A stretch of 64,000 bases of DNA from an uncultured Eubacteriales bacterium (GTDB lineage: Bacteria > Bacillota > Clostridia > Peptostreptococcales > Anaerovoracaceae). Position numbers and translations under genes: made by a program. The first letter of the stretch is position 1. Every line of letters starts with the position of its first letter. Positions 28,420-31,606 of the stretch are shown in pieces. The notes under the pieces are model-generated. The model searched no databases and was not told where the DNA came from. It saw only the letters and a list, made by a program, of their open reading frames with translations. Location of the stretch: contig CACWSO010000004.1 in the NCBI GenBank assembly GCA_902763505.1, positions 1 to 64,000 of the forward strand. The letters run 5' to 3'.

Positions 28420-28458
28420 ATGCTTCTTTTTTATTCTGTAAATAGTGGTGTGGAGTAA
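28420..28458 (+). other. Perfect ribosome site with a 12-codon ORF after the terminator
   Basis: AAGGAGG (28408-28414) lies 5 nt before an ATG that opens the ORF MLLFYSVNSGVE, which then stops inside the antisense 3' end of cysK. It is downstream of a strong terminator. It may be the fossil start of a lost gene. Confidence 0.3.
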
Positions 28459-29363
28459 TATCTGTCTCCGCTGTCCGGCAGGAGCGCTACGATAGTCTTG
28501 CCTTTGTTCTCCGGCTTCTTCGCGTACTCGATGGCCGCATGCAGTGCCGCGCCTGCGGAAATACCTACGGAGATACCTTCCTTCTTCGCCAGATACTTCG
28601 CCGCGTTAAATGCATCGTCGCTGGCTGCACGGAACACTTCATCATAAACCGCTGTGTTCAGTACATCCGGAACAAATCCCGCGCCGATACCCTGGATCTT
28701 ATGTGGGCCCGCTTTACCTTCTGACAGTACCGGTGAATCGTCCGGCTCCAAAGCTACGATTTTGACTTCCGGCTTCTGCTCCTTCAAGTACTCGCCGGTT
28801 CCTGTCAGCGTGCCGCCGGTGCCGACGCCGGAGATGAAGATATCGACGGCGCCATCTGTGTCTTTCCAGATTTCCGGTCCTGTCGTCTCTCTGTGCGCCT
28901 TTGGATTTGCCGGATTGACGAACTGTCCCGGAATGAATCCGCCTGGGATTTCCTTCGCCAGTTCTTCTGCCTTTTCGATGGCACCCTTCATGCCCTTAGC
29001 CCCTTCTGTCAGAACGATTTCAGCACCGTAAGCTTTTAGGATATTTCTTCTCTCCACGCTCATGGTTTCCGGCATGGTCAAGATTGCCCTATAGCCCTTT
29101 GATGCGGCGATGACCGCCAGGCCGATGCCTGTGTTGCCTGATGTCGGTTCTATGATGACGGACCCTTCCTTCAGAATTCCCTTTTCTTCAGCATCTTCAA
29201 TCATGGATTTGGCGATTCTGTCCTTTACGCTGCCTGCCGGATTGAAGTATTCCAGCTTGACCAGCAGTGTCGCTTCCAGTCCAAGATCCTTTTCGATATT
29301 CACCAGCTCTACGAGTGGTGTGTTTCCAATAAGTTGCAGTATTCCTTTGTAAATGTTTGCCAT
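28431..29363 (-). CDS. cysK: Cysteine synthase A (O-acetylserine sulfhydrylase)
   Basis: The 310-residue fold-type II PLP enzyme makes cysteine from O-acetylserine and sulfide. The Schiff-base Lys is in NPAGSVKDRIAKSM (near residue 46). TSGNTGIGLA binds the substrate carboxylate, and SGVGTGGTLTGTGEYL binds the PLP phosphate. Length is standard. GGAGG lies 8 nt before the ATG. It follows metY by 65 bp and appears to be under the same leader-peptide attenuator and Rrf2-type operators. Confidence 0.96.
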   Translation of the reverse strand: MANIYKGILQLIGNTPLVELVNIEKDLGLEATLLVKLEYFNPAGSVKDRIAKSMIEDAEEKGILKEGSVIIEPTSGNTGIGLAVIAASKGYRAILTMPETMSVERRNILKAYGAEIVLTEGAKGMKGAIEKAEELAKEIPGGFIPGQFVNPANPKAHRETTGPEIWKDTDGAVDIFISGVGTGGTLTGTGEYLKEQKPEVKIVALEPDDSPVLSEGKAGPHKIQGIGAGFVPDVLNTAVYDEVFRAASDDAFNAAKYLAKKEGISVGISAGAALHAAIEYAKKPENKGKTIVALLPDSGDRYYSTPLFTE

Positions 29364-29428: not shown

Positions 29429-30712
29429 TTACTTCGCTGCTGCGAATCCCTTCTCCAGATCTTCGATGATATCATCGACATGCTCTGTTCCGATGGACAG
29501 TCTGATGGTTCCCGGATAGATGTCCTGGTCTGCCAGTTCCTCTTCTGTCAGCTGAGAATGAGTCGTTGTCGCCGGATGGATGACCAGACTCTTAACGTCC
29601 GCTACATTTGCCAGCAGTGAGAAGATTTCCAGGCCGTCGATGAACTTCCACGCTTCTTCCTGTCCTCCGTCTATTTCGAAGGTGAAGATGGAACCTCCGC
29701 CGTTTGGGAAATACTTCTCATAGAGCGCATGCTGCGGATGATCCGGCAGCGATGGGTGGTTGACTTTTCTTACCTGCGGATGGTTCGACAGATATTCAAT
29801 GACTTTCTTCGTGTTTTCAACGTGCCTGTCCAATCTCAGTGACAGTGTTTCCACTCCCTGCAAAAGCAGGAATGCGCTGAATGGTGAAATCGTCGCGCCC
29901 GTGTCTCTCAGAAGAATCGCACGGATGTAAGTGACGAAGGCTGCCGGTCCAACTGCATCATAGAATGATACCCCGTGATAGCTTGGATTCGGATCAGCGA
30001 TGTTGCCAAATTTGCCGCTCGCCTTCCAGTCGAACTTTCCGGACTCGACGATGATGCCGCCGAGCGTTGTTCCGTGTCCTCCAAGGAACTTCGTCGCGGA
30101 ATGAACAACGATGTCTGCGCCATGCTCGATTGGTCTGATGAGGTAAGGCGTGCCGAAGGTGTTGTCTATGACCAGCGGCAGACCATGCTTGTGCGCGATT
30201 TCAGCAACGGCGTCAATATCCGGAATATCGCTGTTTGGATTGCCCAGAGTTTCCAGGAAAATCGCTCTGGTGTTTTCCTGAATTGCGCCTTCAACTTCCT
30301 CAAGATTGTGTGCGTCTACGAATGTCGTTTCGATTCCGTACTGCGGAAGTGTGTGCTCCAATAGGTTGAAGGTTCCTCCGTAGATTGTCTTCTGGGCGAC
30401 GATGTGTCCGCCGTTTGCGGCCAGCGCCTGCACCGTGTATGTGATGGCTGCCGCTCCCGACGCCAGAGCCAGAGCTGCGCTGCCGCCTTCCAGTGCTGCG
30501 ACTCTCTCTTCCAGAACGCCCTGAGTGGAGTTGGTCAGTCTGCCGTAGATATTGCCTGCATCCGCCAAACCGAATCTGTCTGCCGCGTGCTGCGCATCGT
30601 GGAATACGTAAGCGGTTGTTGCGTAAATCGGAACCGCTCTCGCGTCAGTTGCCGGATCCGGCTGTTCCTGTCCTACATGTAACTGTAATGTTTCAAATCT
30701 GTAATTACTCAT
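29429..30712 (-). CDS. metY: O-acetylhomoserine/O-acetylserine sulfhydrylase (Cys/Met metabolism PLP enzyme)
   Basis: The 427-residue protein is a gamma-family PLP enzyme that adds sulfide to O-acetylhomoserine, giving homocysteine. It starts NYRFETLQLHVGQEQPDPATDARAVP, which is typical of MetY. The Schiff-base Lys lies in DIVVHSATKFLGGHG, and the long C-terminal part (SIFTFEIDGG and SLVIHPATTTHSQLT) is characteristic. I chose the ATG at 30712 (MSNYRFETL) over an upstream ATG at 30778 that lies inside the attenuator hairpin. It is preceded by a ~250-nt leader with a Cys/Met-rich peptide and a terminator. Confidence 0.94.
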   Translation of the reverse strand: MSNYRFETLQLHVGQEQPDPATDARAVPIYATTAYVFHDAQHAADRFGLADAGNIYGRLTNSTQGVLEERVAALEGGSAALALASGAAAITYTVQALAANGGHIVAQKTIYGGTFNLLEHTLPQYGIETTFVDAHNLEEVEGAIQENTRAIFLETLGNPNSDIPDIDAVAEIAHKHGLPLVIDNTFGTPYLIRPIEHGADIVVHSATKFLGGHGTTLGGIIVESGKFDWKASGKFGNIADPNPSYHGVSFYDAVGPAAFVTYIRAILLRDTGATISPFSAFLLLQGVETLSLRLDRHVENTKKVIEYLSNHPQVRKVNHPSLPDHPQHALYEKYFPNGGGSIFTFEIDGGQEEAWKFIDGLEIFSLLANVADVKSLVIHPATTTHSQLTEEELADQDIYPGTIRLSIGTEHVDDIIEDLEKGFAAAK

Positions 30713-30743
30713 ATATATCAATTCCCTTTCTTTGCCTTTGCAT

Positions 30744-30775
30744 AAAAAATTGCCTGAGGTTTTACTCCCGGGCAA
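30744..30775 (-). terminator. Leader attenuator terminator upstream of metY
   Basis: On the minus strand TTGCC...GGCAA, with an inner GAG/CTC pair, forms a hairpin followed by TTTTTT (plus-strand A's 30744-30749). It lies between the leader peptide and metY. Its 5' arm overlaps a segment (30764-30774) that can instead pair perfectly with 30852-30862. Confidence 0.7.
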
Positions 30776-30862
30776 CATGATGGTTCGGCTTCTTTGTGAC
30801 CTTTATTCAAGACGCACGCAAAGGCTGCTGCGCGTCTCCCATCATATCATCTGCCCGGGAGT
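30764..30862 (-). promoter_or_regulatory. Antiterminator pairing of the metY leader
   Basis: TGCCCGGGAGT (30852-30862, plus strand) and ACTCCCGGGCA (30764-30774) are perfectly complementary over 11 bp. An additional ATGATGG/CCATCAT pair lies inside. Forming this long-range stem uses up the 5' arm of the terminator at 30744-30775, so the two structures exclude each other. The distal arm lies just downstream of the tandem Cys codons of the leader peptide. Confidence 0.65.
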
Positions 30863-30920
30863 TCGGCATCAGACAACACATCATCCAATACATTGTTGTT
30901 TTCGATGTTGTTCTTCTCAT
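30807..30920 (-). CDS. Cys/Met-rich leader peptide of the metY-cysK operon
   Basis: This 37-codon ORF starts at 30920 with an AAAGGAGG site 8 nt upstream and reads MRRTTSKTTMYWMMCC... to TGA at 30807. It has two adjacent Cys codons (TGT TGT, codons 15-16) and seven Met codons, five of them within codons 10-27 apart from the start. This is a striking match to the products of the sulfur operon it precedes. The reading frame runs through one arm of the antiterminator. Ribosome stalling at Cys or Met codons would decide which hairpin forms. It is too short for ordinary gene finders. Confidence 0.7.
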   Translation of the reverse strand: MRRTTSKTTMYWMMCCLMPNSRADDMMGDAQQPLRAS

Positions 30921-30966
30921 TGCTTGCGCCTCCTTTCTTCTAAAATCTTTGTCTTTTGTCAATGCC

Positions 30967-30995
30967 ATATTAATACTATTTACCTACTGTGTCAA
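30967..30995 (-). promoter_or_regulatory. Promoter of metY-cysK
   Basis: On the minus strand TTGACA (30995-30990), a 17-bp spacer and TAATAT (30972-30967) form a near-consensus promoter; transcription would start near 30960. The -35 box lies inside the first Rrf2-type operator. Confidence 0.75.
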
Positions 30996-31050
30996 TAGGT
31001 ATTTTGAAAAAAGTTGAAAATTCTATTTACCCTGTAGTAAAATAGGTGAT
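30977..31050. promoter_or_regulatory. Two Rrf2/CymR-type operators between divergent metY and rrf2
   Basis: TATTTACC occurs at 30977 and again at 31024. Each is followed by a partner AATAGGT (30994-31000 and 31041-31047), giving ACC(T)...AATAGGT inverted pairs 47 bp apart. The first covers the metY -35 region. The second covers the rrf2 promoter (TTGAAA 31014-31019, 18 bp, TAAAAT 31038-31043). One regulator could therefore control both directions, including its own gene. Confidence 0.6.
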
Positions 31051-31092
31051 GCAAAGGCATCCCAATTACTATTTCTCATATTGGAGAACATT

Positions 31093-31515
31093 ATGATATC
31101 AACAAAAGGACGCTATGCGCTGCGCGTTATGATTGATCTGGCGCAGCACGAAGGAGAAGGAAATATCCCTCTGAAAGATATTGCGGAGAGACAGGACATC
31201 TCAAAGAAGTATCTTGAAATCATCGTGAAAGATCTCGTCAAAGGCGGCATGCTGAACGGCGTCAGCGGCAAAGGCGGCGGCTATAGTCTTAGCAGAAAGG
31301 CCGAGGAGTATACCGTTGGTGAAATCATCGAACTCATGGAAGGCACCCTGGCTCCTGTCGCCTGCCTGGTGGACGGTGTGGAGAGCTGCCCTCGCTCTGA
31401 CAGTTGTCTGACGCTGCCGATGTGGAAGGAATACTATGAGATGATCCACCAGTTTTTCTATGGCAAAAAACTGAGCGATCTGCTGGGCGACCGCGATCCG
31501 GTGTATTACATTTGA
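31093..31515 (+). CDS. Rrf2-family transcriptional regulator (CymR/IscR-like)
   Basis: The 140-residue protein opens with the Rrf2 winged-helix signature MISTKGRYALRVMIDLAQHEG, and SGKGGGYSLSR is the wing. Three cysteines in LAPVACLVDGVESCPRSDSC lie where IscR-type members bind a [2Fe-2S] cluster, although the spacing (C-x7-C-x5-C) differs slightly. CymR relatives repress cysteine-metabolism genes together with CysK. I chose the ATG at 31093 because GGAG is 6 nt upstream. It is divergent from metY-cysK with shared operators, which strongly suggests control of sulfur assimilation. Confidence 0.88.
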   Translation: MISTKGRYALRVMIDLAQHEGEGNIPLKDIAERQDISKKYLEIIVKDLVKGGMLNGVSGKGGGYSLSRKAEEYTVGEIIELMEGTLAPVACLVDGVESCPRSDSCLTLPMWKEYYEMIHQFFYGKKLSDLLGDRDPVYYI

Positions 31516-31530
31516 TGCTCTATATAGAAT

Positions 31531-31606
31531 GGTCTGTTAACTCAGCTGGGAGAGTGCTTGGGTCACAACCAAGATGTCGTGGGTTCGAGCCCCGCACAGA
31601 CCACCA
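31531..31606 (+). tRNA. tRNA-Val (anticodon CAC), CCA encoded
   Basis: The cloverleaf is complete: acceptor GGTCTGT (31531-31537) with ACAGACC (31596-31602), D arm ACTC...GAGT, anticodon stem CTTGG/CCAAG with loop GTCACAA (anticodon CAC, decoding GTG), and T arm GTGGG TTCGAGC CCCGC. A terminal ACCA follows. Confidence 0.93.

Follow-up and report, generated by a model that had tools for sequence, protein, structure and literature searches.

A candidate ribosome-mediated attenuator with conserved cysteine codons upstream of metY-cysK in Clostridia

The window analysed here is a 64,000-nucleotide stretch of DNA from an uncultured Eubacteriales bacterium. On its minus strand it carries metY and cysK, both above the cut-offs of their protein models, with a structured leader directly upstream and a divergent regulator gene beyond the promoter region. 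The features of the locus are as follows.

28431-29363, minus strand: cysK, cysteine synthase A (TIGR01139, 451.6 bits, cut-off 350.95)
29429-30712, minus strand: metY, O-acetylhomoserine sulfhydrylase family (TIGR01326, 620.3 bits, cut-off 495.1)
30744-30775, minus strand: intrinsic terminator hairpin (arms B and C) with T6, from folds and sequence reading
30764-30774, minus strand: arm B, common to the antiterminator (with A) and the terminator (with C), from folds and covariation
30777-30783, minus strand: 3' strand of helix 2, CCATCAT, from alignment and covariation
30807-30920, minus strand: leader ORF of 37 codons, from the ORF list, sequence reading and homologous elements
30814-30835, minus strand: hairpin inside the antiterminator, ACGCGCA (30835-30829) with TGCGTGC (30820-30814), from folds
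30836-30840, minus strand: GGGAG, candidate anti-antiterminator able to pair with CTCCC of arm A (30861-30857), from the fold of the 5' fragment
30839-30845, minus strand: 5' strand of helix 2, ATGATGG, from alignment and covariation
30852-30862, minus strand: arm A, the 5' strand of the antiterminator, from covariation, the list of arm types and sequence reading
30873-30878, minus strand: tandem Cys control codons TGT TGT, from sequence reading, alignments and folds
30929-30935, minus strand: Shine-Dalgarno sequence AAGGAGG of the leader ORF, from sequence reading
30967-30995, minus strand: sigma-70 type promoter-like sequence TTGACA-17-TAATAT, 10 of 12 consensus matches
30983-31000, minus strand: palindromic box ACCTATTGACACAGTAGG overlapping the -35 element, from the motif count across elements
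31093-31515, plus strand: divergent regulator of the Rrf2 family, scoring under the equivalog cut-offs for IscR and CymR

A preliminary description of this locus had proposed a 37-codon ORF with a strong ribosome site, a tandem Cys pair and seven Met codons upstream of these two genes, together with a terminator and a perfect 11-bp antiterminator pairing that exclude each other. All of these features were present to the base. AAGGAGG ends 8 nt before the leader ATG, and the ORF (30920-30807) translates as MRRTTSKTTMYWMMCCLMPNSRADDMMGDAQQPLRAS followed by a stop, with seven Met and two Cys. The second TGT begins 14 nt upstream of the CTCCC in arm A. Arm A (30862-30852, ACTCCCGGGCA) is the exact reverse complement of arm B (30774-30764, TGCCCGGGAGT), and arm B is also used by the terminator (30775-30744, TTGCCCGGGAGTAAAACCTCAGGCAATTTTTT), so that the two structures are mutually exclusive. 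We add to that model a second conserved antiterminator helix, 30845-30839 with 30783-30777. The terminator hairpin did not appear in the list from a simple terminator scan; by our reading its stem has 5 pairs and, past a C-A mismatch, 3 more, a build that such a scan may reject. Overall, the leader RNA folded at -73.5 kcal/mol, compared with -50.4 +/- 4.2 for 200 shuffled copies (z = -5.5, none as good). Since the arms and the ORF also recur in relatives, the leader structure goes beyond chance.

The promoter-like sequence came from a region where the scan found 5 matches against 3.2 expected by chance. The box CTATTGAC was found upstream of 119 of 139 homologous elements, and a looser form, CTAYYGAC, in 1 of 139 shuffled copies. 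By its sequence the box would be an operator of the Rrf2 family, to which an Rrf2 protein may bind. The divergent regulator scored 120.7 bits for the Rrf2 superfamily (cut-off 73.3) and is not CymR by NF047409 (94.7 bits, cut-off 195). A repressor of the Rrf2 type, such as is encoded divergently here, is the natural candidate for the ACCTATTGAC box, and CymR of Bacillus, as the text of PMC2940859 describes it, offers a parallel for this kind of promoter control. Just past the regulator gene lies a tRNA-Val (CAC) at 31531-31606.

We asked how far the element extends among relatives with a covariance model, R1, built from 23 elements. At E up to 0.01, R1 matched 54 of the family's 349 genomes, spread over 11 of 92 genera, and 13 of 391 genomes across the class; at E up to 0.001 it matched 35 of 250 genomes, drawn from 249 genera, in f37, another family of the class, and 2 of 299 across the phylum, the second of these matches (L271) lying outside the class. 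The family, class and phylum figures include the window's own genome, and the counts are lower bounds because stricter Infernal filters were applied in the large searches. Scanning named genomes with a DNA pattern yielded at least 117 stretches, of which R1 fitted 115 (79 of 80 and 36 of 37). The two without an R1 match were L217 and L206, the latter a chance pattern match in Paraburkholderia. Among the 80 matches listed, record titles named Lachnospiraceae, Ruminococcaceae, Ruminococcus, Saccharofermentans, Mogibacterium, Eubacterium, Blautia, Parasporobacterium and Christensenella; most of these records were metagenome assemblies whose names point to rumen or gut, and a few were not marked as metagenomic (AC2029, AB2028, YSD2013, KHP2). 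A pattern search of the order matched 26 of 393 genomes. Sixteen matches were leaders of the kind seen in the window, further genera included; a script check showed that L052, L061, L063, L067, L072, L073, L074 and L075 were not such leaders, and L050 and L051 stand outside this tally. L219 and L236 each carried two element matches on one 8-kb stretch, that is, copies near one another.

Within the genus, a MetY search matched 47 of 49 genomes, and R1 found a leader of the same type in 12 (11 whole, plus the one in G001). In all 12 the ORF retains CTCCCGGGCA, and TGCCCGGGAG follows downstream. Reading by eye, we saw the promoter box without such a leader in genomes that include G003, G004, G009, G012 and G032. 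With 12 R1 matches among 49 genomes, many of them incomplete, the element was often lost, never gained or unassembled; absence from a given genome is uncertain because several of the assemblies are incomplete. The element appears to be widespread among many gut and rumen Clostridia while lying outside the RNA-family library. No family of Rfam 15 matched the leader when the window was searched at gathering score, nor, at E up to 1, the interval 30700-31100 or the relative L204. The T-box (RF00230) gave no match in the window at gathering score or in 30700-31100 at E up to 1, and the SAM riboswitch (RF00162) none in the window or in L204. Elsewhere in the genome there are four T-box-like matches below the cut-off and one SAM riboswitch above it (G000:C9:94894-94981). 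The window's leader peptide matched no NCBIfam or Pfam model, and one further leader likewise had no Pfam match.

The genes behind the homologous elements were mostly metY, NlpA-type transporters and cysK, as judged from the 80 loci listed among at least 117 found by the pattern. The first long downstream ORF at these 80 loci was MetY-like in 42, a member of a substrate-binding-protein cluster in 19, cysK in 4 and a permease in 4; it belonged to another gene or a misread frame in 6 (the chance locus L206 included) and was missing in 5. Two representatives of the substrate-binding cluster were NlpA lipoproteins, one of them fused to SBP_bac_3. Other copies include one before metF (L126, above the TIGR00676 cut-off). 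Further copies are followed by genes that scored below the equivalog cut-offs: an ABC ATPase closest to SaoA and to taurine types (L114), an ATPase resembling MetN (L258), cystathionine synthase/lyase-like genes (L259, L265) and, behind the weakest R1 match of the family, a short-chain dehydrogenase (L129). L129 and L297 both lie upstream of short-chain dehydrogenase-like genes with no clear sulfur link, as does L185 before a glutathione-S-transferase-like protein and, by eye, L283. In one genus, second copies with short divergent arms occur near base 1500 of L261 to L265, before a cystathionine synthase/lyase-like gene whose identity comes from a family search on L265.

The reading frame is conserved together with the codons. 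Among the 141 elements with enough upstream sequence, for which Cys or Met at codon -5 was a condition of selection, a Shine-Dalgarno sequence and a start free of stops lay in frame with the control codon in 123; the other frames gave 2 and 5. In 94 of the 123 in-frame leaders the last control codon follows the start by 13 to 15 codons, and the 123 peptides contained 10.1% Cys and 12.5% Met (start Met included). A less biased codon count came from the 98 elements found with R1, although 20 of them had trained the model. Counted relative to arm A, Cys occupied codon -5 in 82 elements, codon -6 in 85 and either one in 95. The three others were L126, which has Met codons, L258, with Cys at -7, and L264, where the alignment is out of register. 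The conserved control codons are those for Cys; those for Met may serve to sense methionine or may not.

The leader could nevertheless sense methionine, or cysteine and methionine together, through the ATG codons beside the Cys codons. Homocysteine, the product of metY, is a precursor of methionine, and Met codons in the R1-found elements occupy -7 in 55 of 98 cases and -8 in 51 of 95, counts that may in part stem from other causes. The copy before metF (L126) reads MGMRM without Cys at -5 or -6, and that before the MetN-like gene (L258) reads TMMYMCMFRM. These examples have to be set against the Cys found at -5 or -6 in nearly all elements. Moreover, the commonest Met is the ATG at -3 (91 of 98), but a ribosome there covers arm A, and the triplet may be constrained as RNA. 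We consider methionine sensing possible but rather unlikely, and keep to cysteine as the signal, perhaps with methionine in addition.

Other codons near arm A were conserved as well: R or L at -4 in 93 of the 98 elements, M at -3 in 91, and the S and R of an S-R pair in 91 and 92. Such conservation would suit a nascent-chain arrest peptide of the TnaC or erm-leader type, where CCRMxxSRA itself rather than codon hunger stops the ribosome. The residues SRA, however, are translated only once the ribosome has reached arm A, and the N-terminal part of the leader, which would fill the tunnel, varies among elements. The arm codons also obey an RNA constraint common to the non-coding arm B. In L252, a stop codon after ICCRMR falls just before arm A, yet the arm is retained except for its first base. 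Arm A is therefore kept as RNA and not as peptide, and a constraint on the SRA peptide as sole cause is ruled out, since L252 stops before it. We regard an arrest peptide as most unlikely and continue with codon hunger at the Cys pair.

Several cysteine leaders of other shapes were seen along the way. Cys was the last residue in 44 of the 141 leaders, many ending R-C-stop (CGA TGT TGA type), and the leader stop codon is a possible second cysteine checkpoint. Within 240 bases upstream of metY in two sister species (L040 and L042) lies another leader ORF ending RINRDDRMCIC-stop, in which no clear terminator was visible by eye; it is perhaps an independent cysteine leader without intrinsic termination. 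Cys leaders unlike the element precede metY in sister species, one that ends MCIC-stop in G018 and G023 and one with MCIWNCHMYM in G036, a finding in favour of cysteine sensing. L037 has a third kind of Cys/Met leader upstream of metY (MEMCIWNCHMYM), with what looks like its own hairpin and T tract.

Next to the codons, the pairing of the two arms recurs with compensatory changes, which the preliminary description had asked of relatives. Alignment A4 (n = 98) comprised 48 of 56 family places (leaving out L055, L056, L059, L085, L089, L095, L112 and L124), 19 class places outside the own genome, L271 and 30 new f37 loci; the f37 search had given 43 places, and L258 is one more. In A4, the number of cells changed on both sides in the A:B pairing and helix 2 was 61, compared with 16.0 +/- 3.3 after shuffling (a level that none of 500 shuffles reached) and 0 to 16 with a slid partner; 11 of 15 pairs had a change on both sides. 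Alignment A3, from pattern-found elements, showed 28 such cells against 6.2 +/- 2.2, in 5 pairs, a number of pairs that 54 of 500 shuffles reached. Both alignments were fitted to the model and kinship alone can lift sequences above shuffles, but the slid control and the non-coding nature of arm B make kinship an unlikely cause. A further alignment, A2, was excluded from all counts because it contains chance matches on the reverse strand. The observed A/B arm pairs include CTCCCGGACA/TGTCCGGGAG, CTCCCAGGCA/TGCCTGGGAG and CACCCGGACA/TGTCCGGGTG, and in genus g230 the second copies carry arms of another type, yet these remain complementary over 5 to 7 bp. The ORF, the Cys codons, the spacing and the arms recur across many genera, so the lack of conservation that could have overturned the earlier interpretation was not found, and that interpretation is supported overall.

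The sequence of the arms is more conserved than pairing alone needs, an excess that the attenuator model leaves unexplained. If A:B and its internal loop formed an aptamer that prevents termination upon binding a metabolite or protein, the ORF being incidental, this near invariance would be accounted for, as would the partial conservation of the stretch between arm A and helix 2. Such a riboswitch-like RNA does not explain why the reading frame and the Cys codons are conserved, helix 2 was not seen by eye in 5 of 7 elements of genus g33, and there was no Rfam match at E up to 1; we find this reading very unlikely. Still less probable, to the point of being scarcely credible, is that the Rrf2-type repressor is the sole regulator and the leader a passive relic. 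The sister species with the promoter box but no leader would fit a relic, in which neither compensatory changes across families nor an in-frame ORF are expected.

We folded the RNA left free by the ribosome with each codon placed in turn in the A site, in order to follow the attenuator along its leader. The ribosome's footprint was set to end 15 nt beyond the first base of the codon in the P site. In 143 elements, preselected for Cys or Met at -5, for a set distance from codon to arm and for an arm B complementary to A, the antiterminator formed in 133 folds when the last control codon occupied the A site, in 96 one codon later and in none two codons later, while the terminator formed at the same positions in 10, 45 and 134, and then in 142. 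Because of this preselection, the A:B count at the control codon is partly by construction and the sharp edge of the switch is another expression of the conserved spacing; what it conveys is a spacing of one ribosome footprint, which agrees with the earlier expectation that a ribosome at the Cys pair leaves arm A just free. In the window, a ribosome waiting at TGT 30875-30873 gave a fold of -52.5 kcal/mol with the antiterminator present. A ribosome on arm A gave the terminator and helix 2, and one at the stop codon the terminator alone.

The full leader RNA of the window without a ribosome also favoured A:B by free energy, and with two more codons free A:B formed in 121 of 143 folds. Default termination therefore needs either kinetics or a hairpin that hides arm A. 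Such a competing hairpin is likely, judging from the modelled folds. In 104 of 143 folds the control-codon segment was paired with sequence downstream of arm A, compared with 56.0 +/- 5.5 after shuffling, and arm A was paired in 118 against 85.1 +/- 3.4. In a column test of this third hairpin, 72.1% of cells were paired against 31-44% when slid; its covariation did not exceed shuffles, a result weakened in part by the control segment being fixed in the search pattern. The segment makes pairings of 8 to 9 bp with single compensations, for example TGTCTGACG with a CGTCAGATA-type partner in L118.

Taken together, the observed anatomy, reading frame, covarying pairing, spacing and gene context make it very probable that the element is a ribosome-mediated transcription attenuator sensing charged tRNA-Cys. 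From these we infer the waiting of the ribosome, the read-through, the signal and the binding of a repressor. Transcription would begin just past 30967, and a ribosome would initiate on the leader ORF. With ample Cys-tRNA it would go beyond TGT TGT and cover or have passed arm A; with arm A unavailable, B would pair with C, the terminator would form and metY-cysK would stay untranscribed. With scarce Cys-tRNA the ribosome would wait at the Cys pair with its front edge on the base before arm A, so that the free arm A could pair with arm B, extended by helix 2, blocking the terminator and allowing read-through. When no ribosome is waiting, the control-codon segment and the sequence right after arm A would probably form a hairpin that hides A. 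The promoter box of the Rrf2-operator type would provide a second layer of control.

The copy before metF (L126, 574-770) has Met codons (MGMRM) in place of Cys, with arms CTCCCGGGTA/TACCCGGGAG, and is possibly a natural change of the sensed amino acid. As a tentative extension, which we think somewhat less likely to hold than to fail, the Clostridia may have a class-wide sulfur regulon, in which the Rrf2-type box and the attenuator module travel together onto biosynthesis and transport genes. The run of hungry codons would be retuned by swaps, with Cys codons before metY, cysK and metB-like genes, Met codons in front of metF (L126) and a Met/Cys mixture in front of the MetN-like gene (L258); arms and spacing would stay alike, and either sulfur amino acid could be read. 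Whatever its extent, a new RNA family of this kind would annotate many leaders that are currently missed, and the element is a concrete, testable proposal of control for many gut and rumen lineages. With the last Cys codon one expected footprint from the antiterminator arm, its members also make a natural series for ribosome geometry.

Classical trp and his attenuators work through hungry control codons and mutually exclusive antiterminator and terminator structures. The window element shares these two traits and likely a third hairpin; it differs in amino acid, sequence and host group, and its antiterminator arm starts at the edge of the footprint. Among the papers listed from the main texts of the open-licence PMC literature, we found no published description of it. 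The closest printed case found, set apart by its description only, is the uORFC-8-2 motif, which the motif's account in PMC8632094 places upstream of cysS in Rhodobacterales, with ribosome-mediated attenuation proposed on scarce Cys-tRNA. As described there, it has a leader ORF, tandem conserved Cys codons, two stems and a U run; it is given for Rhodobacterales and cysS only, and its first stem contains the Cys codons. The window element, by contrast, belongs to Clostridia and to genes of sulfur biosynthesis and transport, and its antiterminator arm comes just after the expected footprint. Cysteine leaders of Actinobacteria, in the text of PMC1262725 that treats them, also have a run of Cys codons in a leader ORF before cysteine genes, but there the run is near the stop, no conserved terminator is described and Rho is suspected, whereas the element studied here has an intrinsic terminator and a covarying antiterminator.

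Control of clostridial sulfur genes by T-boxes, which the preliminary description had mentioned, is in print: in Clostridium perfringens cysK, cysP1, cysP2 and ubiG are described as under cysteine T-box control (PMC2940859). The genes are similar, and the account given there shares the tRNA-Cys charging signal and premature termination with our model (PMC2940859). A T-box, however, binds the tRNA directly without translation, and the window's leader has no T-box match. Later experiments on cysteine leaders in mycobacteria have reportedly been carried out by Canestrari and others. The preliminary description had called leader-peptide attenuation classical for Gram-negatives, but Firmicutes are not new to it, since hisS and hisZ of bacilli have histidine leader peptides according to the portion of PMC2965389 on these genes; they differ from the window element in amino acid, genes and group. 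The mechanism would thus be of a known kind, whereas the RNA family, as far as its sequences tell, appears new and widespread and has an architecture of its own.
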